Origin: Melioribacter sp.
GTDB lineage: Bacteria > Bacteroidota > Ignavibacteria > Ignavibacteriales > Melioribacteraceae
Reading direction: 5' to 3'
DNA length: 64,000 nucleotides
Assembly: GCA_003155655.1 (NCBI GenBank)
Contig: PMDS01000091.1
Coordinates: 1 to 64,000 of the forward strand
The notes under the pieces were generated by a model, which was not told where the DNA came from, made no database searches, and worked only from the letters and a program-made list of their open reading frames with translations. Shown here in pieces: positions 6,620-63,667 of this stretch. Each line of letters starts with the position of its first letter. Within the stretch, counting starts at the first letter, position 1. The translations under genes were made by a program, and so were the position numbers.

Positions 6620-9022
6620 TTATTCATATCTAAGTGATTCTACCGGGTTTAAATTGGCTGTTTTTATTGTTTGAATTACTATCAATATGATAGTTACAAG
6701 AATCAAAAACGAAATGGCTATAATAAAAGGTATGACAGAAATTATTATTTTATAAGCGTACCCGTCCAGCCAGTTTCGCATGATTAGATATGTAAACGGA
6801 CATGCAAGAATAGAAGCAATAAAAATAACAGGTAAAAATTCTTTTATGAACAGTACAATAACGCTTGTAACTGAAGAACCAAGTACTTTGCGTATCCCTA
6901 TTTCCTTGATCCTTTTTTGGATGTTAAATGAAAGTAAACCAATCACTCCAAGCAAAGCTATAATTGTTGCAAGTGTAGCTGCTGTATAGGCCGCTTTTTT
7001 TAATTTTAGTTCTGTTATATAAAGTCTTTTTAATGTGTCGTCCATAAATTGATATTCAAACGGTGCATTGGGCATTAACATGGTCCATTGTTTTTGCAAC
7101 GTTGTAACAGCATTATTTAAATCACCAGGATTTAACCTGATGGAAAGATAACGATAGATTCCCCGATTTCTGATGTTCGTGAACCAAATCGGTTGAATGG
7201 TTTCCAGCATTGAACCAAAATGGAAATTCTTTATAACGCCAACAATTGTATATTCGGCAGAAGAGCCTTGAATTTTGACCTTATTTCCTATTGACGCCGA
7301 AGATGTCCAGTTGAATGCTTTTGCAGCGGACTCATTAATTACAATATTTAATGACTTAGAATCGTCATATGCAGTATTAAAATATCTGCCTGCCGCCATA
7401 GGGATTTGATAAGTGTCGGCAAATTTTTCATCTGTAATCAACGATTGGATCAACACACCCCGTGAAGGATCCTGCCCAGGTTTAAACATATTGTTTGAGC
7501 CGTTATTATTTCCATTCGGTATTTCATATGATAGGGAAGCATCTCGGACTATGCTTGATTGGGCTAATTCATTTCTTATTGTTTCCATGCTGGCAACTCC
7601 CCTTTCTGACCAGTCACGCGGTACCTGTGCAGTAATTATATAATCTTTGTTATAACCTAATTCGCTACTGAAGAAAAATGAAATCTGTTGTGAAATAATG
7701 ATGGAACAAATAAACACTACAGTTGCAGTAGCGAATTGAAATCCTACTAGTAATTTGCGGGTTGCTATTTTTTCGTTCATCGAAGTAAATTTGCTTTTTA
7801 ACGATTCTACCAATCTTAAAGATGAAAGAATAAATGCCGGGTAAATTCCTGCAAGCAATCCAACTATGAGCGACAGGGCTAAAAGCAGAAAAACAAAATA
7901 GATAGGATATGATGTTAGTTCGGGAATATCATCTCCAAACATGCTGCTGAAATAATTTCTTGCAATTATATAAATTAAAACTGCAAATATTGTTGACAGA
8001 AAAACATTTATGGCAGACTCTGTAAGGAATTGAAAAATTAATTGCTTCTTTATTCCACCCAAAACTTTTCTTATAGCGATCTCTTTTGTTCTAGTTCCGG
8101 CTTTGCTAATAGCCAAGTTGATATAATTAATAACCGCCATTAGTAAAATGAAAATCGCAATGGACAACAATATATAGATCAGCTTTTTAATGAGACCGTT
8201 GTTAGCATCGAGATAATATTTTTTCAAAGGAACAAGATAAGTTGTTAAATTCTCACTTATTTGTTCAGGTGCATTATCTTTAATCAACCGGCGCATGGGT
8301 TTATCAAGTTCTTCCGGTGTAACGCCATCCTTTAACTCAACAAAAGCAACAATATATTTATTAGTCCATGGTGATACATCTCTTCGAAAAAAATCAAGGT
8401 TAAATGGTAAAAATATCTGACTGTTATTATTATCGGCAATCATCGTTACAGAATTTTTCGGGTTCTTTTTCATAACTCCACAGATTATAAAATCATGATT
8501 ACTGCCCGAGAAATTTTCTATTGTTAGTGTCTGCCCAATAACATCTGTCTTACCGAAATATTTTATTGCCGCATTTTCTGTTATAACAACCGAGTAAGGG
8601 TCATTTAAAGCAGTTTTAGCGTCGCCATACAACAAAGAAAAACCGAACATACTAAGCATTGTTCTGTCACCGATCTGTAAGTTTTCTCGAAAGTGTTTAT
8701 TATCTTTTGACACAGTTGAAGTAACGGCATCGAACCGGTAATAATCAGCCAAAAGGTTTGGGTATTCCTCTTTTAGTGTTTTTGCTAATGGCCCAAGTGT
8801 AGTAAGCTCATACCCCAGGTTTTGATTTTTCCATTTGCTTTGGATAATATATTGATTGTCGGCATTTTTAAGTCCGGCATTAACTTGCAGTTCGCCCAAA
8901 ATGTAAGCGCCTATTATTAGTGTGAATGCAATCCCTGTAGCCAAACCAAATAAATTGATAATCGACTGAGTTTTATTTTTGTTAAGATTTCTTGATGCAA
9001 TTTTGAAATAATTTCGCAGCAT
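6620..9022 (-). CDS. ABC permease, FtsX/MacB-like (Perm-1)
   Basis: An 800-residue duplicated permease and the last gene before the terminator. TM1 at about 20-42, MacB-type periplasmic domain 45-275 (with VVITENAAIKYFG near 145-157), TM2 280-303, first loop motif KEIAIRKVLGG at 313-323, second periplasmic domain about 450-660, second motif KEIGIRKVLGS at 706. The C-terminal arm is unusual: the WLQDFAYRINISWW block of most paralogues is WLDGYAYKIIISVI. An Asn-rich NGNNNGSNN stretch sits in the second periplasmic domain. I place the start at the ATG at 9022 because AAAGGAG precedes it; the in-frame TTG at 9049 would put the ribosome site inside the coding sequence. Confidence 0.85.
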   Translation of the reverse strand: MLRNYFKIASRNLNKNKTQSIINLFGLATGIAFTLIIGAYILGELQVNAGLKNADNQYIIQSKWKNQNLGYELTTLGPLAKTLKEEYPNLLADYYRFDAVTSTVSKDNKHFRENLQIGDRTMLSMFGFSLLYGDAKTALNDPYSVVITENAAIKYFGKTDVIGQTLTIENFSGSNHDFIICGVMKKNPKNSVTMIADNNNSQIFLPFNLDFFRRDVSPWTNKYIVAFVELKDGVTPEELDKPMRRLIKDNAPEQISENLTTYLVPLKKYYLDANNGLIKKLIYILLSIAIFILLMAVINYINLAISKAGTRTKEIAIRKVLGGIKKQLIFQFLTESAINVFLSTIFAVLIYIIARNYFSSMFGDDIPELTSYPIYFVFLLLALSLIVGLLAGIYPAFILSSLRLVESLKSKFTSMNEKIATRKLLVGFQFATATVVFICSIIISQQISFFFSSELGYNKDYIITAQVPRDWSERGVASMETIRNELAQSSIVRDASLSYEIPNGNNNGSNNMFKPGQDPSRGVLIQSLITDEKFADTYQIPMAAGRYFNTAYDDSKSLNIVINESAAKAFNWTSSASIGNKVKIQGSSAEYTIVGVIKNFHFGSMLETIQPIWFTNIRNRGIYRYLSIRLNPGDLNNAVTTLQKQWTMLMPNAPFEYQFMDDTLKRLYITELKLKKAAYTAATLATIIALLGVIGLLSFNIQKRIKEIGIRKVLGSSVTSVIVLFIKEFLPVIFIASILACPFTYLIMRNWLDGYAYKIIISVIPFIIAISFLILVTIILIVIQTIKTANLNPVESLRYE

Positions 9023-9100
9023 ACGTTTTCTCCTTTGTTCAATTACCAAGAATAGATAATCATTTATTGATAATTGAATTCATTCATACCTCAAACTTTC
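8997..9100. repeat. duplicated junction segment, copy 1
   Basis: This 104-bp stretch spans the Perm-1 start, the 57-bp spacer and the Perm-2 stop. It matches 18574-18677 without gaps at about 97 of 104 positions by eye. Confidence 0.8.
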
Positions 9101-11461
9101 CACAGGGTTTGCAGAAGCGGCATGTAGAGCTTTGAAACCAACTGAAACAAAAGTTATTATGAGTGCTATAAAAACTGTGGAAATGATAAGCCATAAATCA
9201 ATATTAATACGATACGCAAAATTTTGCAGCCAGGTTGATATCAAATAAATTGCAATTGGAACAGCAATTATACTTGCAATACCTACCAGGGATATAAATT
9301 CCTTTGAAATTATTATTACAATATCCAGATAGGAAGCACCCAGGACTTTTCTGATACCTATTTCCTTTATTCTTTGTTGAACAGCAAAGAGTGACATCCC
9401 GAACAAACCGAGACAAGCTACAAAAATTGATAGTAAGGTAAAGTAGCCAATAACCTCACCAAAATTTTCATCTTCAACATATAATTTTGCAAGCCGTTCA
9501 TCAAAGAATTCGAATTCCATTGGTGATCCATTATTGAATAACTTGCTTTTTTCTTTAATATATTGAATGGTACCGGGAATATCAGTTTTATTTATTTTTA
9601 CAATTATTTCGCTTAAATATTTTGTACCTCTTGAGAGAAACATCGGTTGAATAGATTCATGCAGCGAGTGAAAATTAAAATCTTTTACAACTCCAATTAC
9701 TTCTCCCTCCATTATTTTTTCACCAATTGGATTTTTTAAGCCTAATTCTTTTACAGCAGTTTCATTTAGAATGTATTCCCGGTTCGAACCATTTTGATAG
9801 CTTGAAGAAAAATCTCGACCCGAAACTATCGTCATATGCAATGTTCTAATAAAATCACCATCCACATTTGTTCCCTCCAAGCTAATTCTTTTAGTCGGAT
9901 CATCCTTTCGTGGGGCAATTATTACCATTTTTGAATCAGTCCCGGGAATCATATTTGCACCGGAGACATTAATTATATTGGGATTGTTCTTCAATTCATT
10001 CTTAAAAGCATCAAAATTATTCCTTAGAGATGAATCCTCTCCATAGAGCACAACCAATTCATCTTTGTTGAATCCAAAATCTTTATTGTAAAGAAATCTT
10101 AACTGCTGATAAATTGTTATTGAGATAAATATTAATCCAATAAAAACTACCATCTGAATACCAATAAGAGTTTGCCTAAAAAGTACCCTGTTTTTCCCAA
10201 TGTTAAATTTATTATGCAGAATATTAACCGGATTGAATTTTGATAGATAGAAAGCAATATAACTTCCAGATGCCACGCCAACAAGAATAGTTATTAGTAA
10301 AAAAAGAATTATAAACATCCAATTATGAAAGTATTCCCTGGATAATTCGGTTCCCAACAAATTACTGATCTTAGGCAGGAACAATTCTAGCAGCAAAACA
10401 GCAGCAGGGATTGCTAAAATAGAGACGGAAAGAGATTCCAAAATTATTTGTTTGATTATATTCTGTCTCCCGGCCCCCAATACTTTCCTAACACCGATTT
10501 CTTTAATACGCAGGTTTGCAGTGCTTGTTGATAGTATCACAAAATTTAAACATGCTATAAACAGTAAAAGCAATGCTGCAGTGGAATAGATATAGACGTT
10601 TGTTAAGTTTCCCTGAGGGAATCGATTGTTGACCATTTCTGATGAATGAAAATAAAGATCTTTTAATGGAAAAATAGAGAATTCGATATGAGAAGCTGGA
10701 TTTAGGTTCTTCCCTATTACAGTTGCAAACTTATTTGTGAATGCAGAAATGTCAGTTCCAGATTGTAATAAAATATAAGTGCTGTAATAAGATAAGTCCC
10801 ATGAATCGAGAGGATTATTATATCTTTTTCCCCAACTACTTGTAAGTTTATCTTCCGAGATGAATAAAGGAACAATCAAATCTGCCTGGAATGTAGATGT
10901 ATTTGTTATGTTTTCAATAATTCCAGTAATGACCAGGTCATAAGAACCGGTACTAGTTTCAAACGATATGATCTGTCCAAGTGGATTGCTAATACCGAAA
11001 CACTTCTGTGCAAGAGTTTCACATATTACAGCAGAATTTCTTTCTTTAAATATTGTTTCTCTTTTTCCGGATTTCAATGTGAGAGAAAGAATATCGAATA
11101 TTTCCGGGTCCACTGATTTAGCCTGATTTACATTAAAAGTATTATCTTTTATTTTTATTGTACCTCTAATATTTGCTGATCTTGCTGCGGTCTTAATTTC
11201 CGGCAATTCGGCTTTAACAGCCTGTGCAAGAGGTCTTGGAGCTTCAAGCTCAATCCAGTTAAAATCTTTACTAGTATTTTTAACAAGATAAATATTCTCC
11301 AGGTTTTTATTATACTTATCAAAACCAATCTCATGGATTGAATATAAAATCATTGTAAAGCCTGCGGCAAGTCCAATAGAAAGCCCCAAAACATTAATAG
11401 AAGAAATAATTTTTTGTTTTGATAACATTCTGACCATTATTTTTAAATAATTTATAAACAT
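9080..11461 (-). CDS. ABC permease, FtsX/MacB-like (Perm-2)
   Basis: A 793-residue permease of a distinct subgroup shared with Perm-19, 42 kb away. Both carry a YFH...GNLTNVYIYS-type stretch just before TM2, an EYFHSWMF-type segment between TM3 and TM4 (EYFHNWMF here), the KDFGFNK and NPNIINVSG segments after TM5 and a WLQNFAYRI block. Loop motifs are KEIGVRKVLGA (first) and KEIGIRKVLGA (at 699). The C-terminus reads SANPVESLRYE. A TGGAGGG ribosome site precedes the ATG. The stop is TGA where the otherwise near-identical Perm-6 end has TAA. Only 11 bp separate it from Perm-3, so co-translation from one message is likely. Confidence 0.88.
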   Translation of the reverse strand: MFINYLKIMVRMLSKQKIISSINVLGLSIGLAAGFTMILYSIHEIGFDKYNKNLENIYLVKNTSKDFNWIELEAPRPLAQAVKAELPEIKTAARSANIRGTIKIKDNTFNVNQAKSVDPEIFDILSLTLKSGKRETIFKERNSAVICETLAQKCFGISNPLGQIISFETSTGSYDLVITGIIENITNTSTFQADLIVPLFISEDKLTSSWGKRYNNPLDSWDLSYYSTYILLQSGTDISAFTNKFATVIGKNLNPASHIEFSIFPLKDLYFHSSEMVNNRFPQGNLTNVYIYSTAALLLLFIACLNFVILSTSTANLRIKEIGVRKVLGAGRQNIIKQIILESLSVSILAIPAAVLLLELFLPKISNLLGTELSREYFHNWMFIILFLLITILVGVASGSYIAFYLSKFNPVNILHNKFNIGKNRVLFRQTLIGIQMVVFIGLIFISITIYQQLRFLYNKDFGFNKDELVVLYGEDSSLRNNFDAFKNELKNNPNIINVSGANMIPGTDSKMVIIAPRKDDPTKRISLEGTNVDGDFIRTLHMTIVSGRDFSSSYQNGSNREYILNETAVKELGLKNPIGEKIMEGEVIGVVKDFNFHSLHESIQPMFLSRGTKYLSEIIVKINKTDIPGTIQYIKEKSKLFNNGSPMEFEFFDERLAKLYVEDENFGEVIGYFTLLSIFVACLGLFGMSLFAVQQRIKEIGIRKVLGASYLDIVIIISKEFISLVGIASIIAVPIAIYLISTWLQNFAYRINIDLWLIISTVFIALIITFVSVGFKALHAASANPVESLRYE

Positions 11462-11472
11462 GTTCCCTCCAT

Positions 11473-13767
11473 TTATTCATATCTTAATGCATTTATCGGG
11501 TCAGCTATAGCCGCTTTAATTGTATTAATACTTATTGTAATCAACGCTATTAACAATGCAATTCCGCCTGAAAGAGCAAAAATCCACCAGCTTAATCCAA
11601 TTTTAAATGCAAAATCTTCAAGCCATTTACTCATTAAATAATAAGATACCGGCACGGCAATAATGTTTGCCAGGATTACCCAACTTGAAAAATTTTTTGT
11701 TAACAAACCAAATATTTCCGGAACAGTTGCGCCGAGCACTTTTCTAATACCAATTTCTTTTATTCTCTGTTCGGATTGAAATACCGATAATCCAAATATT
11801 CCCATACTAGAAATAATTATTGCAAGTATTGAAAATATGCTAACTATAGAAGCCAGATTTTCTTCTTTTTTATACATCGATGCAAAATATTCATCATAAA
11901 ATCCAAGTTCTTCCTGATAATCAGGACATACTTCTTTCCACGTTTTATTTATATAGCTAACAGCTTCGCTAATTGGTCCGGTAAATCTCATTGTAATTAC
12001 ATCCGGAGGCATAAAATCACAATACGCCATTAGAAAAGGACCAATTTTTTGATGCACAGATGAGTAACTAAAATCTGATACGATCCCCAATATATTCCAT
12101 CCACCTATCTTCTTGTCTTCCCAATTTTTATCTTTTAATTGCTTTAGAGCTGTTTCATTAATAATTACCGCTTTATTAATATCACTTGGTAGAATATTTC
12201 TTCCCTTAAGAATTTTAAGCCCAAATGTCTTCAATGAATTGCTATCAATTGCCATTGCATCATAGCTGTTCAACATTAAATTGATACTTCCAGGCATACC
12301 TAATGTTTTTGTTAATGACTTTATTCCAGAATATTGTTGCAATTTGTCTGTTAAAACTTGTATTCTATCTTTTAATGTAAAATCAATTTTAAGGTACATC
12401 AATTGGTCAGTGTTAAAACCCACATTTTTATATTTTGCATAATTAATTTGTTTGGAAATGACAATTAACCCGGCAATCAGAATTATCGCTATTGAAAATT
12501 GAAACATTGTAAGAACATTGCGGAACGCTTTACTTCCGCCATGGAAAGACGGATTGACTTTAAAAAGCTGCAATGCGGATATTTTTAATAATACTAGAGA
12601 CGGTACTATACTTATAAGAAAGCTTAATAATAATATAAAAGTTATGAAAAGAAGAAGGAATCTTAGATCGGTAAATATTAGTAGTGTTAACGTCTTATCA
12701 ACAAATTGATTGAAATAGGGGAGGAATAAGCTTGCCAGAATTATTCCTAAAAAAGATGAAATAATTGTTGTGAATAATGATTCCGAAGAAAGTTGTTTAA
12801 TGAGAGATTTTCTATCAGCTCCAAGACATTTTTTAACTCCAAACTCTTTTAATCTGTATTTATAAGATGCTGTAGTCAAATTGATATAATTAATTATCGC
12901 CAGTGTGAGTACGATTATCCCAATAATAGATAACAATTTTACTAATCCGGCATTTCCATGCATTAAATCGTAATCATTATAATCAACATTAAAATAATCT
13001 GAGCTTAATGGAGCAAGTATTATATGTTTGGGATAAACAAAACCATCTATTTTATTTAATGCAGATATCTGATTTTCAACAGTGGCTTTATCAACAATTT
13101 TTTCTAATTCTAAAAACATACTGAAAAGGAATTTACTTTTATTATTGGAACTCATTTCCCGGTAGGGCAATTTCTGCTCAGGGGAATTAGAATAATTAAC
13201 AAATATTTCCGCATCAAAGCTAAGGTTCTTTGGCAGATCTTTTACAACACCTGTAACGATCATATCAATATGATGATTTAGACGCAAAGTTTTTCCAGCA
13301 ACATCTAAAGTACCGAATATTCTTTTTGCTGTTGATTCTGTTAGTATAACATTATTAATTGCGCTTAATGCCAGTTTTGGATTTCCGGAAAGAAATTTGA
13401 TGTTAAAAACATCGAAAAAATTAGCATCAACCATAAGCATATGCTTAAGCCGGAATAATTTGTTCCCAGTTTCAGCATCAATACTAAAATTATTAAGAAG
13501 ACATGAATTTTTAATTCCAGGTATACTTTCTAGTACTTTATCCTTTAATCTGTAATCAACATTATAATCCTTACGATCAGCATCTACAACACGAAAAATA
13601 TTGTCGACATTTTTAAGAGAAGAATTATAATTGAATTCATAATAAACGAATTGACCGATCAGAATTACAAATGCTATTCCGAATGCTAATCCGGTAATAT
13701 TGATAAAAGAAAATAGTTTTCGTCTTGAAATAACGCGTAGGTAATGTTTTAATAGATTAAGAAACAT
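11473..13767 (-). CDS. ABC permease, FtsX/MacB-like (Perm-3)
   Basis: At 764 residues this is one of the short-form trio Perm-3/4/14. The trio shares the start region SRRKLFSFINITGLAFGIAF, VDNI(F/Y)R(V/L/I)VD after TM1, and a degenerate first loop motif, here KEFGVKKCLGA at 307-317 (Arg and Val of the usual RKV replaced by Lys and Cys). The second motif KEIGIRKVLGA at 670 is canonical, followed by WLEDFAFKIGLSWWIF and DPINALRYE. The second periplasmic domain has YDEYFASMYKKEENLAS before TM6. GGAG precedes the ATG. The spacer to Perm-4 (43 bp) is a near copy of the Perm-4/Perm-5 spacer, pointing to tandem duplication. Confidence 0.88.
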   Translation of the reverse strand: MFLNLLKHYLRVISRRKLFSFINITGLAFGIAFVILIGQFVYYEFNYNSSLKNVDNIFRVVDADRKDYNVDYRLKDKVLESIPGIKNSCLLNNFSIDAETGNKLFRLKHMLMVDANFFDVFNIKFLSGNPKLALSAINNVILTESTAKRIFGTLDVAGKTLRLNHHIDMIVTGVVKDLPKNLSFDAEIFVNYSNSPEQKLPYREMSSNNKSKFLFSMFLELEKIVDKATVENQISALNKIDGFVYPKHIILAPLSSDYFNVDYNDYDLMHGNAGLVKLLSIIGIIVLTLAIINYINLTTASYKYRLKEFGVKKCLGADRKSLIKQLSSESLFTTIISSFLGIILASLFLPYFNQFVDKTLTLLIFTDLRFLLLFITFILLLSFLISIVPSLVLLKISALQLFKVNPSFHGGSKAFRNVLTMFQFSIAIILIAGLIVISKQINYAKYKNVGFNTDQLMYLKIDFTLKDRIQVLTDKLQQYSGIKSLTKTLGMPGSINLMLNSYDAMAIDSNSLKTFGLKILKGRNILPSDINKAVIINETALKQLKDKNWEDKKIGGWNILGIVSDFSYSSVHQKIGPFLMAYCDFMPPDVITMRFTGPISEAVSYINKTWKEVCPDYQEELGFYDEYFASMYKKEENLASIVSIFSILAIIISSMGIFGLSVFQSEQRIKEIGIRKVLGATVPEIFGLLTKNFSSWVILANIIAVPVSYYLMSKWLEDFAFKIGLSWWIFALSGGIALLIALITISINTIKAAIADPINALRYE

Positions 13768-13810: not shown

Positions 13811-16111
13811 TTATTCGTATCTCAGTGTTTTTACGGGATCAGCTACTGCTGCTTTTATTGCCTGCAAACTTACTGTTGCCATCGCAATTACTAATGCTAT
13901 TCCTCCCGCAATAACAAAAATCCACCAGCTTATATTTATTCTGTATGCAAAATCATGAAGCCATTTATTCATGAAATAATATGCAACAGGCCATGCAATA
14001 ATGTTGGCAAAGACTATCCAAATAGAAAAACTTTTTGTCAGCATGAGAACAATTTCCGGAACCGTTGCACCGAGAACTTTTCTAATTCCTACTTCCTTTA
14101 TTTTTTGTTCGGATTGAAAAACAGACAAACCGAATATGCCCAAGCATGAAATTACAACGGCGAGAATGGAAAATATACTTACCAGAGAAGCAAGGTTTTC
14201 CTCTTTCCTATACATTGATGCGAAGTGCTCATCATAAAAATTAAGATCTATAGGGTAATCAGGGCATATTTCTTTCCACGTTTTATTGATATAATTCACA
14301 GCTTCGCCAATTGGCCCAACAATTCTCATTGTTATCATACTTGCTTTTTTACAATCACCATATTCCATTAAAAATGGACCAACCTTATTATAAAGAGATG
14401 AATAATTAAAATCCGATACTACCCCGACAATCTCCATACCGTTTATTTTTTGATTTTCCCAATTCTTATCTTCTAATTTATTCAATGCGGTCTCATTAAT
14501 TATTACCGCTTTATCGATATCACCGGGCAGTAAATCTCTCCCTTTAATAAGTTTAAAATCAAAAGTCTTCAACGTAGCAGAATCAATATCCATCGTTTTA
14601 TAACCATTAACACTCATATAGATAGTGCCGGGTACACCGAATGTTTTTGTTAAGGACCTTACTCCATTATACTGCTGCAGTTTATCGGATAATACCCGTA
14701 CTCTGTCTGGAAGAGGATAACGTAAGTTTAGATATAATAATTGATCAGATTTAAAACCAATATTTCTGTGTTTTACATAATCAATTTGTTTATAAACAAT
14801 CATCAATCCGGCAATAAGGATTATCGCAATTGAGAACTGGAACATTGTAAGAATATTACGATATATTTTCCTTCCTCCTTTTAACGATGGATTTAATTTA
14901 AAAAGCTGCAACGTGGGTACTTTCGATAGAATTAATGCAGGGATAATACCTATAAAGAGACTTAATATTAAAACGAATACAACAAAGAGCAGAAGAAAAT
15001 GGAAATCATTAAATACCTGCAAAGTTAGATTTTTATCTATAAATTGGTTGAAATAAGGAAGGAATAATCCAGCCAAAATTAATCCCAGGAAAGATGAAAT
15101 AATTGTTGTGAATGACGATTCGGCTATGAGTTGCTTAATAAGTGATTTTCTATCGGCACCCAGACATTTTTTAACACCAAATTCGGTAAATCGGTACCTG
15201 TAAGACGCTGTAGTAAGATTTACAAAATTAATGACTGCAATCAAGAGAACAACTAGACCTATAATTGACAACAGCATCACTAATCCGGTATTCCCATGCT
15301 GTAAATCCTTTTCCTTATAATCCGTATTGAAATAATTCGAACTAAAAGTCGTAAGTATCACATTTTTAGGATAAAGAAAATCATCGATATTATTCAACGA
15401 GGATATTTGTTTCTCAGCAGCGGCTTTATCTGCATTTTTGTTTAATTCGGCAAAAACACTGAAATAAAATAATTCCCTGCCATTTATTTTTGCCCCTCTA
15501 CTATACAATTTTCGATCTATTGCATTAGCATGGCTTATAAATAAATCAGCAGCTAGGCTGATATTATCGGGTAAATCTTTTACTACACCTGTAACCAGCA
15601 TATCATATTGATGTCCCATGCGGATAGTTTTTCCAATTACATCGATTGTACCAAAAAATTGTTTTGCCGTTCTTTCTGTTAGGACAATATTATCAACGGA
15701 GTTTAATGCCTGCTTTGAGTTTCCTAAAAGAAATGATAAGTTAAATACATTGAAAAAGTTTGAATCAACAAGCGCTATATCTTTTATCTTGAATAATTCA
15801 TTATTTATCTCAACGTCACTATTAATATTAAAATGACTTAATAGGCAGGCATTTTTAATACCGGGAATACCACTTAATAACTGCTCCTTAATTCTGTAAT
15901 CAATTTTATATTCCTTCTTTTCGAAATCAACAAGCCTGTAAATGTTATCCACATTTTTTATAGAATTATTATAATTGGATTCATAATAAATGAATTGGCC
16001 GATCAAGACCAAAAATGCGATACTAAATGCCAAACCTGTGATATTAATAAATGAGAATAGTTTGCGTCTTGTAATACTGCGCAGGTAATGTTTTAATAGA
16101 TTAATAAACAT
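13811..16111 (-). CDS. ABC permease, FtsX/MacB-like (Perm-4)
   Basis: A 766-residue permease, immediate tandem sister of Perm-3 and close to Perm-14. First loop motif TEFGVKKCLGA (Lys of KEIG replaced by Thr); second KEVGIRKVLGA at 672. The 3' end of the gene resembles Perm-16 and Perm-10 more than its own sisters: 13842-13887 matches 43591-43636 at 43 of 46 positions, and the protein end SLQAIKAAVADPVKTLRYE is identical to Perm-16. This mosaic suggests conversion of the C-terminal coding end. Start supported by CGGAGAAA before the ATG. Confidence 0.88.
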   Translation of the reverse strand: MFINLLKHYLRSITRRKLFSFINITGLAFSIAFLVLIGQFIYYESNYNNSIKNVDNIYRLVDFEKKEYKIDYRIKEQLLSGIPGIKNACLLSHFNINSDVEINNELFKIKDIALVDSNFFNVFNLSFLLGNSKQALNSVDNIVLTERTAKQFFGTIDVIGKTIRMGHQYDMLVTGVVKDLPDNISLAADLFISHANAIDRKLYSRGAKINGRELFYFSVFAELNKNADKAAAEKQISSLNNIDDFLYPKNVILTTFSSNYFNTDYKEKDLQHGNTGLVMLLSIIGLVVLLIAVINFVNLTTASYRYRFTEFGVKKCLGADRKSLIKQLIAESSFTTIISSFLGLILAGLFLPYFNQFIDKNLTLQVFNDFHFLLLFVVFVLILSLFIGIIPALILSKVPTLQLFKLNPSLKGGRKIYRNILTMFQFSIAIILIAGLMIVYKQIDYVKHRNIGFKSDQLLYLNLRYPLPDRVRVLSDKLQQYNGVRSLTKTFGVPGTIYMSVNGYKTMDIDSATLKTFDFKLIKGRDLLPGDIDKAVIINETALNKLEDKNWENQKINGMEIVGVVSDFNYSSLYNKVGPFLMEYGDCKKASMITMRIVGPIGEAVNYINKTWKEICPDYPIDLNFYDEHFASMYRKEENLASLVSIFSILAVVISCLGIFGLSVFQSEQKIKEVGIRKVLGATVPEIVLMLTKSFSIWIVFANIIAWPVAYYFMNKWLHDFAYRINISWWIFVIAGGIALVIAMATVSLQAIKAAVADPVKTLRYE

Positions 16112-18599: not shown

Positions 18600-18677
18600 A
18601 TGTTTTCTCCTTTGTTCAATTACCAAGTATGGATAATCATTTATTGATGATTGAATTTATTCATACCTCAAACTTTC
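18574..18677. repeat. duplicated junction segment, copy 2
   Basis: Matches 8997-9100 without gaps (about 97/104). It covers the Perm-5 start, a 57-bp spacer and the Perm-6 stop, although Perm-5 and Perm-1 as proteins are not close sisters. Confidence 0.8.
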
Positions 18678-21023: not shown

Positions 21024-21070
21024 AATTGCCGCTCTTATTTATTGTTTTTTTTTCTACCTGCATCAAAGTA

Positions 21071-21868: not shown

Positions 21869-21890
21869 GAGTTTCTCCTCAAATATTATA

Positions 21891-22040
21891 TTATTCATAC
21901 CTTAAGCTTTCAATCGGGTTTGCAGTTGCCGCTTTAATTGCATGAAAACTCACCGTTAGCAAAGCAATTATAAGAGCTATTCCACCTGAAAGAGCAAATA
22001 CCCACCAACTAATGTTTATTCTGTATGCAAAATCTTGCAG
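21891..22040 (-). pseudogene. orphaned 3' tail of Perm-7 after in-frame TGA
   Basis: Beyond the TGA at 22041-22043 the Perm-7 frame stays open for 49 codons, LQDFAYRINISWWVF...TANPIESLRYE, ending in TAA at 21891. With the TGA counted, the region from the second KEIG motif is exactly 95 codons, as in all other paralogues. No frameshift is seen, so a single base change (TGG to TGA) explains it. Confidence 0.85.
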
Positions 22041-26694: not shown

Positions 26695-26707
26695 ATATAA
26701 TATCTTA

Positions 26708-41056: not shown

Positions 41057-41106
41057 ATTTATCACCAATTATGTTTCTAATATTTTCCGGTAGTTGGTTT
41101 ATTATT

Positions 41107-56315: not shown

Positions 56316-58706
56316 CTATTCATATCTAATACTCTTAACCGGATTGGCAAACGCTGCTTTTATCGTCTGTGAACTAACGGTTATAAGAGCAATCAATAAA
56401 GCCATGCCACCGGATAATATAAAAACCCACCAGCTAATATTAATTCTGAATGCAAAGTCTTGCAGCCAGCTAGCCATAAGATAGTACGCAACCGGTATTG
56501 CAATTATATTCGCATATAATACCCATTGAAGAAACTGTTTTGAAAGAGTTCCAACAACATCAGAAACTGAAGCCCCCAATACTTTACGGATTCCGATTTC
56601 TTTTCTCTTTTGCTCTACGATGAACGAGACCAAACCAAGTAAACCAAGGCATGCAATAATAATTGCCAGAGCTGAAGAATAGCTTACTATTTGAGCAACC
56701 CTTTCTTCTCTTTTATACAATGAATTGAAATCAGAATCTAAAAATGTGTATTTAAACGGTTTCTGGCCCGAGTATCTGTCCCAAACCGATTTAATAAAAT
56801 CAATTGTTGCAGGAAGATTACCACTTTTCGTTTTGACACATAAATACTGCAAATATGGTTTATTTAGCCTGACAAACAATGGCTCAATTTTTTGATGCAG
56901 TGAATGGATGTTAATATCTTTTATTAAGCCTATAATATTGTATTTATTATTATTTATGCTAATAGTGGAATTAATTGCGTTTTTCAGACCAAGCGAATTT
57001 GCCAGAGATTGGTTTATTAAAACCGCATTTGTACTATCTGTTGTAATATTCTTTGAGAAATTTCTGCCCTCAACTAGAGGTATATTAAATGTCTGCAGGA
57101 AATTAAAATCACTATCAATCGAATAGGATAAGACTTTAGTTTCACCTGCTTCACCGGGTATATTAACGTAAGTTGCCGAGACAATATTAATTGGGGTTTG
57201 GCTGCAAGCAGTAACATCACTAATTGATGGGTTCTGACTTAGATCCTGCTTCATTGGTCCAAGTTGTATTATAACATTATTATTAAGCGGGACAACAACA
57301 ATATTTTCGCGGTTATAACCCATGTCCCTATTCTTTATATAATTCAATTGTGAAAGAATTATAAAAGTGCAGGCAATAAGAGCGATTGAGGCAGCAAATT
57401 GAGTAACCACTAAAATGTACCGTAAATATGCATGTTTGCCTTTTGCATTATCTCCCATAATGACTTTGACAGGCTGAAAACTTGAAAGAATAAATGCAGG
57501 ATAAGCCCCAGACAATAAACCGATTAGTAATGTAATTACTGAAATTCCAATAAGAAAAGAGGGCTGAAGCAAGGCTGCACTGCTAAAATTAATTCCGATT
57601 AATTGATTAAATGAAGGCAATAAAAACAGATCAAGAATTATGGCAAATATACCAGCCGTAATTGAAAGAAAAACTGAATCCCCCATAAACTGGGCAATTA
57701 ATTGGATCTTATTTGCCCCAATCACTTTACGGACTCCTACTTCCCTGGCCCTTAACGAAGCACGCGCAGTTGAAAGATTCATATAATTAATACTGGCAAT
57801 TGATAACATCACAATCGCAATTGCAATTAAAATTAACATTGTCTTCAAATCACCATTTTCACCCATACCAAAGTATGCATTGTTGTACAGACGAATATCT
57901 TTCAATGGCTGCAGATACAATTCTCTTGCTTTAATATCTGCATTAGCATCACTTAAATACTTATTGACTATATTGGGCATTCTTGCGTTAATAAATTCAG
58001 GATTTGTTCCGTTTATTACCTTAACATAATTGTACCAGGAGTTGTTTTTCCAACTTAATGCTTGTTCCCTATTTTTTAAGCCTGAAGCATATGTTTCAAA
58101 TGATGTAATCAGTCCATACGTAGCAAATTGAGAATTAGCAGGCAAAGATTTATAGATACCTGTAACAGTCCATGTTTCTGTCTCAATAACAGTAATAGTT
58201 TTGCCAATAGGATTTTCACTGCCAAATAATTTCTTTGCAATATTTTCTGAAAGAATAACCGTGTTGAGTTGAGATAGAGCAGTATTAGTGTTGCCTTGCA
58301 TCAATTCAATTGAAAACATCTGTAAAAAATTTGGAGCAGTAGCATAGAGTACATTTTCTTCAAAAGACATATTTTTAGAATTATTAATTGCAGCATTTTT
58401 CCATGTTCCTATTGTAGCATAGTTAACAATTTCCGGGAATTCTGATTTAAGTGTGCGTCCGAGAGGTTCCTGTGTTACAGCAAAATACTCGGTACCCATA
58501 AAAGGTTTGCCTGGGACTCTCTGAATTACCCGGTAAATTGAATCAGTGTTTGGATAGGATTTATCGTATTCCCATTCGAATTTTACGTAAAGCATTATCA
58601 ATGACGCGATTGCAATTCCAATTGCAAGTCCCGAGATATTTAAGAATGTAAATACTTTTTGTCTCAGAATATTGCGGATTACAATTTTGAAATAATTTCT
58701 AATCAT
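56316..58706 (-). CDS. ABC permease, FtsX/MacB-like (Perm-21)
   Basis: A 796-residue permease, tandem copy of Perm-20 with long shared stretches throughout (ITVxExETWTVTG, VTQEPLGRTL, EQKRKEIGIRKVLGAS with SDVVGTLSKQFL). First loop motif REVGVRKVIGA, second at 702. The C-terminal arm is SWLQDFAFRINISWWVF, ending FANPVKSIRYE. Variable positions cluster in the periplasmic domains (WKNAAINNSKN versus WKDVVINIDRK). The start follows AAGGATGATG. It uses a TAG stop, unlike most paralogues. Likely the newest duplication in the window, judged by similarity along the whole length. Confidence 0.9.
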   Translation of the reverse strand: MIRNYFKIVIRNILRQKVFTFLNISGLAIGIAIASLIMLYVKFEWEYDKSYPNTDSIYRVIQRVPGKPFMGTEYFAVTQEPLGRTLKSEFPEIVNYATIGTWKNAAINNSKNMSFEENVLYATAPNFLQMFSIELMQGNTNTALSQLNTVILSENIAKKLFGSENPIGKTITVIETETWTVTGIYKSLPANSQFATYGLITSFETYASGLKNREQALSWKNNSWYNYVKVINGTNPEFINARMPNIVNKYLSDANADIKARELYLQPLKDIRLYNNAYFGMGENGDLKTMLILIAIAIVMLSIASINYMNLSTARASLRAREVGVRKVIGANKIQLIAQFMGDSVFLSITAGIFAIILDLFLLPSFNQLIGINFSSAALLQPSFLIGISVITLLIGLLSGAYPAFILSSFQPVKVIMGDNAKGKHAYLRYILVVTQFAASIALIACTFIILSQLNYIKNRDMGYNRENIVVVPLNNNVIIQLGPMKQDLSQNPSISDVTACSQTPINIVSATYVNIPGEAGETKVLSYSIDSDFNFLQTFNIPLVEGRNFSKNITTDSTNAVLINQSLANSLGLKNAINSTISINNNKYNIIGLIKDINIHSLHQKIEPLFVRLNKPYLQYLCVKTKSGNLPATIDFIKSVWDRYSGQKPFKYTFLDSDFNSLYKREERVAQIVSYSSALAIIIACLGLLGLVSFIVEQKRKEIGIRKVLGASVSDVVGTLSKQFLQWVLYANIIAIPVAYYLMASWLQDFAFRINISWWVFILSGGMALLIALITVSSQTIKAAFANPVKSIRYE

Positions 58707-58721: not shown

Positions 58722-61148
58722 TTATTCATACCTGATACTTTTAGCCGGGTTAGTAAGTGCTGCTTTAATTGTTTGCGAGCTAACTGTTGTAAATGCAATC
58801 AGGAGTGTAACTATTCCGGATATAATAAATACAAGCCAGTTAATTTCAGTTTTATAAGCAAAATTTTGGAGCCAGTTATTCATTATAATATAGGCTACAG
58901 GCCATGCAATTATATTTGCCAGCAATACCCACCATGCAAATTCTTTGGAAAGCAGCATTACAATTTCAAGAACCGAAGCACCGAGCACCTTACGGACTCC
59001 AATTTCTTTTGATTTTTGTTCAGCCAGGAAAGCTGCAAGTCCGAATAAACCCATGCACGCTACAAAAATCGAAAGTATTGAAAAGGTCAAAACGGAAGTC
59101 CCGGTGTTTTCGTCGGAACGATACATATTTGTAAATGATTCATCCATAAACTGATAACTTAAAGGAATTGTTTGAGCAATACTTTTCCATTTGGATTTTG
59201 CTTCACTTAATATATTAGCTACACTTGCCATATTTATATTAAACGAAACATGTCCCATGCTGTTGCCGTACAACAAACAAAGAGGACCGATATCTTGGTG
59301 GAACGATTCGTAATGGAAATCTTTTACAACGCCAATGATTTTATATTTTGTTAACTGGTTGTTGTCGTTCCGGGTGTAAATGTAATTATCGATGGGATTT
59401 GTGTACCCCATTTTTTTAACTGCCGTTTCATTGAGAATAACGGAAGAAGTATTATCTCCGTAGTCTTGTGAAAAATTTCTTCCTTCAGCGAGTTGAATTC
59501 CCATTGTTTTTAAATAATCGTAATCAATTTTCCATCTTTGCATAGTCAAACCGTTTTGAGCGACTGAAATACTCTCCTTAAAAAATACTTCTATATTTCT
59601 GGCAGATGGCGTTGGAAGGAATTCAGTTATTGTTCCTGATTTAACACCAGGGACTTGAAGCATTTCATTTTTGAATGTTTCAATGCCGCTGCCGAGAGCA
59701 TAAGTATCGTTAATTACAAGGACTTGATCTTTTTGGTATCCAAGATTTGTGTTCTGAATATAATTCAGCTGCCTATATATAATTATTGTACCAATTATTA
59801 ATATTACAGAAGTAGCAAATTGAAAAACAACTAGAAAGCTTCTCAATTTACTCCCTCTATAATTTGAATGGATTTTACCTTTAATAATCATAGCAGGATT
59901 GAATTTTGATAGATAAAATGCTGGATAACTTCCGGCGAGTAAACCGACTATAAACGGTAATAAAATTATAATAAACAAAATTTGTCTTGATACAATATTC
60001 GAGAAATATAAATCTTTGCCTGCTAATTTACTGAAAGAAGGAAGCATAAAATAAACAGCAATCAGTGCTATTAGTACCGAACATATTGCTGTCAAAGTTG
60101 ATTCGGTAAGAAATTGAGAAATTAAACTTTGTTTATCAGTACCCAGCACTTTTCTAATTCCCACTTCGCGCGTGCGGTTAGCAGAACGCGCGGTGGTAAG
60201 ATTCATAAAATTTATACAAGCAATAAGAAGAATAAACAACGCTACTGCCGAATAAATATAAATGTATTGTATATTTCCAGTCGGAGACATTTCCTGTGTA
60301 CGTTTTGAATACATGTGTATTTTAGTGATAGGAATCAGGGAATTTAAAATGCTGTTACCAGCTTTTTCGAATTCTTCCCTGCTTTTAATCCCAAGATGCT
60401 CTTTTGCATAAGGCAAACAATATTTATCATTGAATTGAACCAGTTCCTCATCAACTTTTTTATAATCCGCTCCGGGTCTCAGCAACAAATAAGTATGAAA
60501 ATTCATCGATATAAAATTTCCCCAATCATATTTAACATCCTTCATCGAGAATAGAAAATCAAACCTGAAATGTGAATTTGAAGGAACATCTTTTATCACA
60601 GCGGATACCTTATAGAGCGTACCATGGTTATCGTCGGTTTCAATATACTTTCCTACTATATCGGCTTTCCCGAAATATTTTTTTGCAGTGGATTCTGTAA
60701 GTATTACAGAACGCGGATCAACCAATGCATTTTCTGTGCTGCCGTATAATACAGGGAAAGTAAAAACTTTAAAGAAAGTTGTGTCGACATGAAAGCATCT
60801 CAGTTCCACATTATAAACTTCACCATGTTTAACAAGCTTTCTCCCTCCGTATGGATAAATTCTTGTATACTCTTCCACTTCTGAATAATCCTGTTTCATA
60901 AGTTGACCCATCATATCCGATGTGATCGGCGTATGCAGTTCGCTTCCACCGAATTTCAAATCCGTATTAATACGATATATTCTATCTGCGTTTTTGTGAA
61001 ATCGGTCATAACTTAATTCATCTTGGATATATAACATTATCAACAAGCAGCAAGCAATTCCAATAGCTAAACCAAGAATGTTAATAAATGAATACATCTT
61101 GTGACGTTTAATATTTCTGATAGCTATTTTCAAATAATTTTTAATCAT
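58722..61148 (-). CDS. ABC permease, FtsX/MacB-like (Perm-22)
   Basis: An 808-residue permease, sister of Perm-23. Both have an extra stretch in the first periplasmic domain before TM2 (YAKEHLGIKSREEFEKAGN here, ASSMLGIAPNDFIKSGN there), which explains lengths above 800. First loop motif REVGIRKVLGT, second KEIGVRKVLGA at 714. The arm reads NNWLQNFAYKTEINWLVF, ending ALTNPAKSIRYE, as in Perm-23. The second periplasmic domain has TPSARNIEVFFKES. Start behind AAAGGAAT. The sister relationship and adjacency indicate a local duplication older than Perm-20/21. Confidence 0.9.
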   Translation of the reverse strand: MIKNYLKIAIRNIKRHKMYSFINILGLAIGIACCLLIMLYIQDELSYDRFHKNADRIYRINTDLKFGGSELHTPITSDMMGQLMKQDYSEVEEYTRIYPYGGRKLVKHGEVYNVELRCFHVDTTFFKVFTFPVLYGSTENALVDPRSVILTESTAKKYFGKADIVGKYIETDDNHGTLYKVSAVIKDVPSNSHFRFDFLFSMKDVKYDWGNFISMNFHTYLLLRPGADYKKVDEELVQFNDKYCLPYAKEHLGIKSREEFEKAGNSILNSLIPITKIHMYSKRTQEMSPTGNIQYIYIYSAVALFILLIACINFMNLTTARSANRTREVGIRKVLGTDKQSLISQFLTESTLTAICSVLIALIAVYFMLPSFSKLAGKDLYFSNIVSRQILFIIILLPFIVGLLAGSYPAFYLSKFNPAMIIKGKIHSNYRGSKLRSFLVVFQFATSVILIIGTIIIYRQLNYIQNTNLGYQKDQVLVINDTYALGSGIETFKNEMLQVPGVKSGTITEFLPTPSARNIEVFFKESISVAQNGLTMQRWKIDYDYLKTMGIQLAEGRNFSQDYGDNTSSVILNETAVKKMGYTNPIDNYIYTRNDNNQLTKYKIIGVVKDFHYESFHQDIGPLCLLYGNSMGHVSFNINMASVANILSEAKSKWKSIAQTIPLSYQFMDESFTNMYRSDENTGTSVLTFSILSIFVACMGLFGLAAFLAEQKSKEIGVRKVLGASVLEIVMLLSKEFAWWVLLANIIAWPVAYIIMNNWLQNFAYKTEINWLVFIISGIVTLLIAFTTVSSQTIKAALTNPAKSIRYE

Positions 61149-61219: not shown

Positions 61220-63667
61220 TTATTCATACCTTATACTTTTAGCCGGGTTAGTTAAAGCAGCTTTAATTGTTTGCGAGCTTACCGTTGCAAATGCAATTAA
61301 TAGTGTAATAATTGCTGCAAGAATAAATACAAGCCAGCCAACCTCAGTTCTATAAGCAAAATTCTGGAGCCAATTATTCATCATAAAATATGCTACAGGC
61401 CATGCAATTAAGTTTGCAAGTAATACCCACCATGTAAATTCTTTGGAAAGAAGCATTACAATTTCAACAACCGATGCACCTAATACTTTTCTTATACCTA
61501 TTTCTTTCGTTCGCTGTTCGGTTATGAATGAAACTAATCCAAATAAACCAAGACAAGCAATTATAATTGCCAGTAATGAAAACACTGTTGTTATCTTTGC
61601 AATTCTATTTTCGGATGTATACATTCTTTCAAGATTTTCATTTAAGAATGTCCAATACATTTTCTCACTTCCGGAGAATTTATTCCAGACTTTTTCTATG
61701 CTACTAATTACTGTATTAATATTAGTTGCAGCAACACGAATAGTAATTACTGTTGATGCTTGTCTTATATGACTTAAATGAAGCACCAGAGGTCTTACAG
61801 TTTTATGAAGCGATTCATAGTTAAAATCTTTAATTATGCCAATTATTTTAAAAGGAATCATTTCTTTTGTATCATTCTTCATTGCAGCGAGATTTTTACC
61901 AACCGGGTTCCTGTTGTTAAATCTTTTTACCATTGCTTCATTTATTACAACAGCGTTTGTATCAGAGTTAAATTCTCTTGAAAAAAATCTTCCGTCTTTT
62001 ATTTTAAGTTGGTATGTTTTTGCAAAGTCATAATCTACATCCAGCATTTGTGCAGGTATTACATTAGATCCCGTCATCTTATCAAAAATATAACCATTGC
62101 CGGGTATACCAGAAGCAAACATCAGAGAAGATGCCGTTGAACTAATTACTTCGGGATTATTTAAAATTTCCTGCTGAAATACTTTTATGTTCCTTGTAAT
62201 TACAGACCCATTGTTAATCGCAATTAATGCTTCTCTGTTAAATCCAAGATCCCTTTTCTGAATAAACTCAAGCTGATTTTTTATTGTTATAGTTCCGATT
62301 ATGAGCGTAATTGAAATAGCAAATTGAACAATAACGAGAATACTTCTAATTCTACTTTTCCTGCTTTTTGACCCCGGGCCACCTTTTAATATATGCGCGG
62401 ATTGAAATGAAGAAAGATAAAATGCGGGGTAGCTTCCAGCTATTAATCCGACAATAATTCCAATAGTTATTAATGCCGGCAGATTAAACAGATTATCAAA
62501 AAGATTGAATGAAAGTTTACGATTGATAAAATCATTGAAATAAGGAAGCAACAAATAGATCAACAAAACTGAAAACATAACAGAAATCATACTTATAAAA
62601 ATTGATTCGGAAAGAAATTGTGATATAAGTTTTGATCTATTTGAGCCAAGAGTTTTTCTAATACCAACTTCTCTTGAGCGCTTTTCGGATTTTGCCGTAG
62701 AAAGATTCATAAAATTAAATATTGCTATGAGTAGTATGAATGAACCAACTGCAAGAAAAATATAGGAATATGTAATATTGCTTATCCTTTCATTTCCCCA
62801 TTCTGTATTTGAATCTACGTTATAATCTGTTTGTGATCTCAAATAGATTGATGATAATGGCTGGAGTAAATATTCATAGATATTTCCACTCTTAATAAAA
62901 TCATTAGGAGCAATACCAAGCATTGAACTAGCCAAAGGAATGATATTCTTTTTTGCAATATTTTTCATTTTATTATTAAACTCATTTATATCTATCCCCT
63001 TTTTCATTTGCAGGTAAGTTGTATACCCACCCGACAACCAATCTTGAGATGTTGGTTCTTCATAGGTCGACATAGACAATAGGAAATTGCAACTAAAGTG
63101 GGATTTTTTTGGAAAATCCTTCATTACTCCGGTAATTAGATATTCAGCAGAATTATCAACTGTAAAAGTTTTTCCTACCGGATTAATATCACCAAAGTAT
63201 TTTTTTGATGCCGTTTCTGAAATAACTATTGTATTGGGGTTTCTTAACGAATTTTTTTTATCTCCATATAAAAATGGTAAAGTAAAAATTTCGAAATAAG
63301 ATGAGTCTGCTGTATATATGTCTCCTTCCCTAAAGATTTTATCATTATATCTTAGATTATGCTGACCGAAGTAACCAATCCTAGCGTAATTAATTACCTC
63401 TGGGAAATTATCTTTTAATGCAGCCCCTAAAGGTGGACAGGATTTTGCATTTGTCTGATCGACACCCTGGAAACGAAAGTGTACAAGTACCCTGTAAATT
63501 TGATCTTTATTATCATTGAAATTATCAAAACCAATTTCGTCCAGAACAAATAAACCGAGTATTATAAAACATGAAATCCCAACTGCAAGTCCGGCTATAT
63601 TTATTAAAGAGAATATTTTATTTCTCATCAGGTTTCTTAATGCAATCGTAAAATAATTTTTGAGCAT
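61220..63667 (-). CDS. ABC permease, FtsX/MacB-like (Perm-23)
   Basis: An 815-residue permease, the longest of the array and the first after ATPase B. TM1 region FSLINIAGLAVGISCFIILGLFV; first loop motif REVGIRKTLGS; second KEIGIRKVLGA at 721. The arm is NNWLQNFAYRTEVGWLVF, ending ALTNPAKSIRYE. First periplasmic domain: ADSSYFEIFTLPFLYGDKKNSL. Second: MFASGIPGNGYIFDKM and VDYDFAKTYQLKIKDGRFFS. AATAAGGAAA precedes the ATG. The 50-bp gap to ATPase B suggests a single transcript with its motor. Confidence 0.9.
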   Translation of the reverse strand: MLKNYFTIALRNLMRNKIFSLINIAGLAVGISCFIILGLFVLDEIGFDNFNDNKDQIYRVLVHFRFQGVDQTNAKSCPPLGAALKDNFPEVINYARIGYFGQHNLRYNDKIFREGDIYTADSSYFEIFTLPFLYGDKKNSLRNPNTIVISETASKKYFGDINPVGKTFTVDNSAEYLITGVMKDFPKKSHFSCNFLLSMSTYEEPTSQDWLSGGYTTYLQMKKGIDINEFNNKMKNIAKKNIIPLASSMLGIAPNDFIKSGNIYEYLLQPLSSIYLRSQTDYNVDSNTEWGNERISNITYSYIFLAVGSFILLIAIFNFMNLSTAKSEKRSREVGIRKTLGSNRSKLISQFLSESIFISMISVMFSVLLIYLLLPYFNDFINRKLSFNLFDNLFNLPALITIGIIVGLIAGSYPAFYLSSFQSAHILKGGPGSKSRKSRIRSILVIVQFAISITLIIGTITIKNQLEFIQKRDLGFNREALIAINNGSVITRNIKVFQQEILNNPEVISSTASSLMFASGIPGNGYIFDKMTGSNVIPAQMLDVDYDFAKTYQLKIKDGRFFSREFNSDTNAVVINEAMVKRFNNRNPVGKNLAAMKNDTKEMIPFKIIGIIKDFNYESLHKTVRPLVLHLSHIRQASTVITIRVAATNINTVISSIEKVWNKFSGSEKMYWTFLNENLERMYTSENRIAKITTVFSLLAIIIACLGLFGLVSFITEQRTKEIGIRKVLGASVVEIVMLLSKEFTWWVLLANLIAWPVAYFMMNNWLQNFAYRTEVGWLVFILAAIITLLIAFATVSSQTIKAALTNPAKSIRYE

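Follow-up and report, generated by a model that had tools for sequence, protein, structure and literature searches.

The DNA analysed here, hereafter the window, comprises bases 1–64000 of an 80,764-base contig (C128) in a draft genome of Melioribacter sp. (4.6 Mb, 137 contigs), and it holds 23 of the 24 genes of an array of MacB/FtsX-type permeases. Our best reading is that this locus belongs to a widespread organisation and works like an exporter of the MacAB/DarBCD type with many permeases per engine. It has the layout of a shared-engine permease array, with one adaptor, two ABC ATPases (ATP1 and ATP2), several permeases and a divergently oriented pair of NtrC-type regulator and histidine kinase. 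We consider it probable that the whole is one regulated, tripartite-type exporter that falls in ABC type VII (the MacB/LolCDE/FtsEX-like class) and combines a shared engine with a permease slot of variable content; the sharing of the engine, the substrate and an ATP1/ATP2 heterodimer are what we infer within this reading.

Organisation of the array

The first-pass annotation of the window described 23 same-strand FtsX/MacB permease genes between 6620 and 63667 with two small genes among them, and the list of open reading frames (ORFs) together with Pfam and MacB_PCD searches bore this out. In fact, 23 minus-strand ORFs of 725–823 aa span 6620–63667 and are interrupted by two smaller ORFs at 21071–21898 (275 aa) and 50816–51478 (220 aa). 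The run is real, but it does not stop at the window edge, and one of the small genes is an ABC ATPase, ATP2. Beyond the edge lie ATP1 (63718–64407), a 24th permease, p01 (64436–66814), and an HlyD-type adaptor (67075–68322). The order of transcription is HlyD adaptor, p01, ATP1, p02–p06, ATP2 and p07–p24, and the regulator and the histidine kinase stand on the opposite strand, 215 bases from the adaptor. The spacers among p01–p24 measure 11–142 bases, 98.3% of 6620–66814 is coding, and the genes on both flanks are unrelated to permeases. The features are as follows, from the adaptor onwards.

67075–68322, beyond the window, transcribed with the array: HlyD-type adaptor (HlyD_3 and HlyD_D23 over cut-off)
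64436–66814, beyond the window, transcribed with the array: permease p01
63718..64000 in the window, gene to 64407, minus strand: ATP1, ABC ATPase, 229 aa (sequence motifs)
61220..63667, minus: permease p02, 815 aa (MacB_PCD and FtsX, Pfam)
58722..61148, minus: permease p03, 808 aa, structure predicted (MacB_PCD search, model)
56316..58706, minus: permease p04, 796 aa, 72% identical to p05 (MacB_PCD and FtsX, Pfam)
53910..56303, minus: permease p05, 797 aa (MacB_PCD and FtsX, Pfam)
51504..53855, minus: permease p06, 783 aa (MacB_PCD and FtsX, Pfam)
50816..51478, minus: ATP2, ABC ATPase, 220 aa, D-loop NLH, LSGGQQQL (sequence motifs)
48360..50744, minus: permease p07, 794 aa (MacB_PCD search)
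45978..48347, minus: permease p08, 789 aa (MacB_PCD search)
43560..45965, minus: permease p09, 801 aa (MacB_PCD search)
41107..43485, minus: permease p10, 792 aa (MacB_PCD search)
38762..41068, minus: permease p11, 768 aa, 65% to p21 and p22 (MacB_PCD search)
36368..38749, minus: permease p12, 793 aa, 53% to p16 (MacB_PCD and FtsX, Pfam)
33941..36355, minus: permease p13, 804 aa (MacB_PCD and FtsX, Pfam)
31493..33907, minus: permease p14, 804 aa (MacB_PCD search)
29123..31480, minus: permease p15, 785 aa (MacB_PCD search)
26708..29110, minus: permease p16, 800 aa (MacB_PCD search)
24302..26662, minus: permease p17, 786 aa (MacB_PCD search)
22041..24218, minus: permease p18, 725 aa, cut by an in-frame TGA (MacB_PCD and FtsX, Pfam)
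21071..21898, minus: 275-aa ORF with a hydrophobic N-terminal segment (ORF list)
18657..21023, minus: permease p19, 788 aa (MacB_PCD search)
16155..18626, minus: permease p20, 823 aa (MacB_PCD search)
13811..16111, minus: permease p21, 766 aa (MacB_PCD search)
11473..13767, minus: permease p22, 764 aa (MacB_PCD and FtsX, Pfam)
9080..11461, minus: permease p23, 793 aa (MacB_PCD and FtsX, Pfam)
6620..9049, minus: permease p24, 809 aa, the last of the array (MacB_PCD and FtsX, Pfam)

Recurrence in other genomes

We surveyed 392 Bacteroidota genomes (at least 95% complete, evenly drawn), in which an array-type permease was called at E ≤1e-35; the permease counts per genome stop at “at least 11”, and small counts may be underestimates. 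Array-type permeases are present in 106 of the 392, and many families of the phylum have retained both these permeases and ATP2. The best 80 loci of a longer list, from named genomes and in stretches of at most 22.8 kb, belong by title to Bacteroidota groups (71), Aminicenantes (4), KSB1 (3) and 'bacterium' (2), with longest same-strand permease runs of 1–9 within these stretches. Five extended loci on contigs of 0.09–1.1 Mb hold 44, 21, 15, 13 and 6 permeases. The largest is in a Bacteroidetes metagenome-assembled genome (G039) and has an 11-kb break before its last permease, and the next three are in Mucilaginibacter phenanthrenivorans (21), Flaviramulus sp. (15) and Flagellimonas aequoris (13). 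Arrays also lie inside the single-contig assemblies G142 (4 permeases), G157 (7) and G172, and the smallest form, in G013, consists of adaptor, ATP1 and one permease. The array is not singular.

The recurring set is composed of regulator, kinase, adaptor, ATP1, N permeases (N = 1–44) and, mostly, ATP2, and one adaptor was seen per stretch, whatever N. The regulator pair adjoins the array in G039, G041, G042 and G043, and the G040 stretch starts within the adaptor gene. In the five extended arrays, one end is occupied by the adaptor and ATP1, and ATP2 lies at or close to the opposite end; nearer relatives often have ATP2 beside ATP1 (G017, G019, G061, G231, G288, G308 and G350). The case that close relatives all carry such arrays, raised in the first-pass annotation, was not what we found: an array-type permease was detected in none of the five congeners sampled (at least 95% complete, E 1e-35), and an ortholog of the kinase was missing in 11 of 11 congeners (best E 9e-23). 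Moreover, no empty insertion site was found in the five congeners tried, where the flanking adenylate kinase and ATP-cone/uridine kinase genes lie apart.

An array of this kind might be an artefact, with copies from other strains or loci stitched together during assembly, and a draft genome in 137 contigs gives some room for it. We regard this as hardly credible. There are no long near-identical repeats within the array, and chance or assembly collapse is implausible as its source because the best whole-gene DNA identity among the copies is about 75% and the median protein identity 32.7%. Arrays of the same plan also exist on the contigs of five genomes and in the three single-contig assemblies mentioned above.

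Two ATPase lineages

ATP1 has LSGGQQQR and DEPTGNLD in 23 of 23 sequences, and the same two positions (R and D) were found in 12 of 12 further ones, of which the one from G368 (207 bits) is possibly a different ATPase. ATP2 has LSGGQQQ[LI] and DEPTGNL[HN] in 16 of 16 sequences and in 17 of 17 further ones, some genomes being perhaps common to both sets; its D-loop Asp is replaced by His or Asn, and Walker A and the DEPT motif are retained. Seven other ABC ATPases in the collected loci all carry R and D. By these motifs, ATP1 (canonical) and ATP2 (altered in the D-loop and the signature helix) are shown as distinct conserved lineages. In the Melioribacter genome, each of five other MacB-like loci has its own ATPase within about 1 kb, which leaves the array no further ATPase scoring above 133 bits.

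The presence of ATP2 follows the size of the permease repertoire. With a call at E ≤2e-84 (the threshold was placed between 283.5 and 268 bits), ATP2 was found in 79 of the 392 survey genomes, all of them among the 106 with array-type permeases, and in 0 of the 286 without. It is present in 1 of 17 genomes with one permease, 8 of 17 with two or three, 34 of 36 with four to ten and 36 of 36 with at least 11; that is, in 70 of 72 genomes with N ≥4 vs 9 of 34 with N <4 (Fisher p 1e-14, kinship ignored). The halves of the permease chain are unlike each other, which makes it natural to guess that one chain sits on a pair of ATP1 and ATP2.

The two ATPases could also be two engines, ATP1 and ATP2 homodimers each serving their own subset of permeases, in which case the array would be two or more ordinary exporters strung together. 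ATP2 often adjoins a permease away from ATP1, and small systems such as that of G013 get by with ATP1 only, both as this explanation would have it. We judge it rather unlikely, because ATP2 was not found in the survey genomes that lack array-type permeases, because the altered D-loop in 33 of 33 ATP2 sequences would be odd for an independent homodimer, given the role generally assigned to the D-loop Asp, and because the tree does not evidently divide the permeases into two groups (no formal test).

Family and fold of the permeases

PF12704 (MacB_PCD) matched the N-terminal half of all 24 array genes over cut-off in a genome-wide search. In the 10 permeases scanned by Pfam, MacB_PCD and FtsX both exceeded their cut-offs in every case and no ABC_tran domain was found; the ATPases are separate genes. 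Hydropathy of the 24-sequence alignment and a predicted structure of p03 (pLDDT 87, pTM 0.81, two heads and eight long membrane helices) indicate that each permease is a fused double MacB/FtsX unit with two heads and eight membrane helices. The array permeases are thus type VII ABC proteins of the MacB/FtsX superfamily by domains and by whole-chain fold, one permease having been modelled. The structural comparison was a re-scoring of Foldseek matches, where absence from the list carries no meaning, and the best full-length solved match of p03 was YbbP (Z 24.8, 679 residues, rmsd 9.4, 12% identity). Conservation is lowest in the head blocks (15–40% identity) and higher in the coupling regions (48% and 60%) and at both termini (51–63%). 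Seven coupling-region residues are invariant in all 24 copies, namely E311, K316 and G319, and K700, R705, K706 and G709 (p01 numbering). The suggestion of the first-pass annotation that the array serves envelope export with variable periplasmic heads gained support here, as the variable heads, the adaptor, the ATPases and a TolC-like gene in three relatives all fit it.

We compared the array with four known systems; membership in the DarB/DarD and ADOP families was judged by the curated NCBIfam/TIGR cut-offs (622.3 for ADOP, 700 for DarB and 375 for DarD). First, MacAB-TolC has the same MacB_PCD and FtsX permease fold, a MacB-type ATPase and an HlyD-type adaptor, and in three relatives the cluster includes a TolC-type gene; here, however, two permease units are fused per chain, the ATPases are separate, there are 24 permeases per adaptor, and the ATPases are of two lineages. 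Second, the darobactin exporter DarB/DarD has a duplicated permease and an ATPase of the same kind, and the DarB profile aligns across almost the entire length of some copies. The scores are far under the cut-offs, with 136.8 at best for DarB (NF038008) among seven permeases scanned and 258 for DarD (NF038007), the top NCBIfam match of ATP2. Moreover, the darobactin exporter has one permease, whereas here there is an array. Third, E. coli YbbAP-TesA, the top full-length structural match, likewise combines a single-chain duplicated permease with a separate ATPase. According to PMC12646458, YbbP is a duplicated permease with 10 membrane helices, together with two YbbA and the hydrolase TesA, whereas the array permeases have eight helices and are accompanied by an adaptor gene and two ATPase types.

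Fourth, ADOP proteins (TIGR03434) are duplicated FtsX permeases with many paralogs per genome, and the annotation data of PMC11573002 give 28 and 33 ADOP-type genes assigned by RAST in two Dyadobacter genomes. The array had been likened to these orphan permeases, but neither part of the comparison holds. The best score in the genome was 297.1 bits, for p18 read through its stop, and the best among the scanned permeases 288.9, vs the cut-off of 622.3; and the permeases are not orphans, since ATP1 and ATP2 sit within the array and adaptor and regulator are linked to it. Half-profile ADOP matches were obtained within frames of 825–914 aa in the congeners G003, G006 and G010; neither G003 nor G010 yielded an array-type match at E 1e-35, and G006 is outside that survey.

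Some collected loci contain longer frames. At L031 (8771–12427), L036 (8897–12439) and several places in G041, tails of array-type permeases are found in frames of about 1,150–1,270 aa, with about 400 aa extra, possibly by N-terminal fusion or merged frames. At L119, L120, L042 and L051, the permeases measure about 857–965 aa by open frame vs the usual 800, with the extra part at the N-terminus, and no engine genes were seen in these stretches.

Age and origin of the copies

Pairwise protein identity among the 24 permeases has a mean of 33.5%, a median of 32.7% and a range of 27–72%. The closest copies are p04/p05 (72%), p11/p21/p22 (64–65%), p12/p16 (53%) and p06/p23 (42%). In five closest pairs tested, dN/dS is about 0.1–0.2, with dS >1 in four of the five, which places these pairs under purifying selection. 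As described earlier, the copies are diverged and mostly intact: 23 of 24 reading frames are intact, and the exception is p18, cut by an in-frame TGA 49 codons short of the usual end. The codons behind this stop still encode a normal permease tail ending in NPIESLRYE, so that it is a recent mutation or a sequencing error. These old, diverged and mostly intact copies speak for a repertoire rather than for dosage, as had been proposed.

Recent tandem duplication was rejected as the main origin. For 13 of the 24 copies, the best match among the collected permeases sits in another genome, and in a FastTree phylogeny of 210 of the 399 collected permeases the 24 copies fall into 17 single-array clades, interleaved with permeases of other genomes. 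Elsewhere, the 44 permeases of G039 form 39 such clades, the 21 of G041 form 18 and the 13 of G042 form 13. The arrays thus assemble old lineages and are not recent tandem expansions. Local duplication, the origin first assumed, holds for p04/p05 and a few others only. Composition gave no sign of a recent foreign origin either, the GC content of the array (0.339) being within the range of five other loci in the same genome (0.333–0.366).

Gene ends

The last 127 or so residues have a mean column identity of 64%, vs 42% for the whole proteins. DNA matches of about 65–83% cover the 3' ends, many of them crossing the spacer to reach the beginning of the following gene, and join genes whose bodies otherwise sit at the level of about 33%. 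In the pair analysis of the 24 copies, where 6 close pairs and all p18 pairs were excluded, the C-terminal excess exceeds the body in 172 of the 247 pairs used. We further analysed 129 permeases from six arrays, with 105 close pairs masked. Where two permeases share a residue, the ratio of observed to expected codon identity over the last 75 columns is 1.17–1.33 within arrays (6 of 6 arrays), vs 0.97–1.19 (mean about 1.08) between arrays and 1.01–1.10 in the bodies. The best match lies in the own array for 26–49 of 129 permeases in body windows (26 by chance) and for 63.4 of 129 at the C-terminus, where G039 contributes 32 of its 44. For the 24 permeases of the Melioribacter array, the corresponding values are 15.9 (C-terminus) and 13.1 (N-terminus), with 2–12 elsewhere until the last windows. 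We read this as ends homogenised by recombination or conversion at gene junctions, with the bodies left divergent.

Two pairs of spacers are also alike. The 30-base spacers before p20 (18627–18656) and p24 (9050–9079) are near-identical, the p20 and p24 proteins being 30% identical, and a second similar pair is found at 33908–33940 before p14 and at 26663–26707 before p17.

Homogenised ends would also be expected of a recombination-prone array that merely gains copies by gene conversion or unequal crossing-over, with no selection for diversity. The broken copy p18 and the absence of the family from all five congeners sampled agree with such neutral accumulation. We find it very unlikely, as 23 of 24 frames are intact at 27–72% identity, dN/dS in the closest pairs is low, and the family and ATP2 are retained so broadly in the phylum.

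Adaptor, regulator and kinase

No close paralog of the adaptor is present in the same genome, where the second-best match stands at E 6e-9. The regulator has a response receiver, a sigma-54 activator domain and a Fis helix, and the membrane part of the kinase is a single short N-terminal hydrophobic region. In all 17 kinases compared, the hydrophobic stretches near the N-terminus touch or fuse by residue 60, so that there is no room for a periplasmic domain; three have an extra weak stretch in the catalytic part. Such an architecture is consistent with a sensor that acts within the membrane and may read the pumps directly. Strong orthologs of the kinase (391–457 bits) occur in 6 of 38 relatives, and all six have double-length permeases. 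In G031 (L106, 6860–8266) and G017 (L109, 5542–6927), an extra kinase-like ORF separates the NtrC-type regulator from the orthologous kinase.

The gap between regulator and adaptor was scanned in 17 cassettes with the two genes at most 2.5 kb apart. A palindrome TGTNCGN4CGNACA (at most 1 mismatch) is present in 8 of the 17, with a background of 75 in 2.03 Mb; the motif was chosen from the gap of this contig, so that the remaining 7 cassettes are the test. At 68439–68454 it has its sole occurrence on the 80-kb contig. Sigma-54-like sites facing the adaptor (at most 1 mismatch) were found in 7 of 17 cassettes, with no background computed. Along the contig, the minus strand has 27 such sites and the plus strand 8, vs 12.5 per strand in mononucleotide shuffles; the minus ones are intragenic, none lies in an array gap, and we attribute them to coding composition. 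In 6200–26000, neither sigma-70-like sites (76 vs 89 in shuffles) nor terminators (14 vs 10.1, sd 3.3) gave anything clear. A TolC-type gene (OEP) stands between regulator and adaptor in L035, L047 and L043, flavobacterial cassettes chosen for their 1.5-kb gap.

A kinase with no room for a periplasmic sensor domain also recalls BceAB/BceS-like systems of sensing and detoxification. The permeases would then strip antimicrobials from the membrane or from lipids and report the flux to the kinase, giving protection and not product export. BceA and BceB are among the proteins that ATP2 and the permease fold resemble. Against this, the cluster includes an HlyD-type adaptor gene, joined in three relatives by one for a TolC-type channel, and the regulator is a sigma-54 activator and not of the BceR type. 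This account is possible, yet we hold it for less probable than export.

Proposed mechanism

In the shared-engine exporter that we favour, each permease chain would form a whole transmembrane pump alone and sit on a nucleotide-binding-domain pair made of ATP1 and/or ATP2. A periplasmic or membrane substrate would be driven via the shared adaptor into an outer-membrane channel whose gene lies outside the locus. As the permeases differ mainly in their heads, each may handle a different substrate (peptide, lipid-like molecule or antimicrobial), while motor, adaptor and switch would be common to all. The kinase would read the membrane or the pumps and switch the unit on from a single site upstream of the adaptor. 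The array would grow and reshuffle by recombination in the conserved gene ends, and old divergent bodies would be kept between homogenised ends. A more specific form is put forward tentatively, as a combinatorial exporter: an asymmetric ATP1/ATP2 heterodimer would fit the unequal halves of any permease, one motor and adaptor would drive dozens of heads, ATP2 would enable large repertoires, and the permease ends would be sites of exchange.

Several observations weigh against the shared-engine exporter. With regard to the ATPases, no ATP2 was found in G351 and G409 despite N ≥4 (the G409 array reaches the contig end, and its ATP2 may be unassembled), nor in G013 (one permease) or G025 and G027 (few visible), so that ATP2 is dispensable to a permease; in small systems ATP1 is the only motor, and the ATP1/ATP2 pairing stays a guess. 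The position of ATP2 varies among far end, mid-array and beside ATP1, G183 and G368 have no permease in the 16 kb around it, and in G019 the engine genes are together and the permeases scattered away from them. With regard to the switch and the exit, G037 and G029 show a damaged or partial double-length match without a kinase ortholog, the gap between regulator and adaptor on this contig yielded no sigma-54 promoter (at most 1 mismatch), and no outer-membrane channel gene is present at this locus, the OEP matches of the genome all lying on other contigs. With regard to the gene ends, the C-terminal rise in own-array matches is carried by this array and G039, with none in G040 and G041; two between-array codon ratios (1.17 and 1.19) reach the within-array range, and codon-level constraint may account for part of the effect.

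Other genes in and near the array

The 275-aa ORF has a glycine-rich body, and its start codon overlaps the original stop of p18. It gave no Pfam family even at E 0.1, no second copy turned up in the gene listings of the collected relatives' loci, and it may or may not be part of the exporter system. A putative esterase with an apparent signal peptide (5471–6301, same strand) lies 318 bases downstream of p24, possibly by chance, though YbbAP works with the hydrolase TesA. At 136–522 there is a small ORF with a pilin-like N-terminus (a hydrophobic segment, then a low-complexity body) and no Pfam match at E 0.001.

Significance

Among the papers listed by full-text searches of the open-access literature, subscription journals being outside the scope, we recognised no description of the array-plus-engine layout. 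New beyond the first-pass annotation are the engine and the switch, the recurring set with N of 1–44, the ATP2 motif with its link to repertoire size, and the homogenised ends. The ATP2 motif provides a simple marker to find such systems. Should the engine be shared, roughly one in four genomes sampled from the phylum (106 of 392) would carry an exporter with exchangeable heads, a design not shown by the transporter families compared here, and many genes labelled 'ABC transporter permease' or ADOP would become parts of one system. If, moreover, permeases match substrates one to one, the arrays would report what these bacteria secrete or resist.

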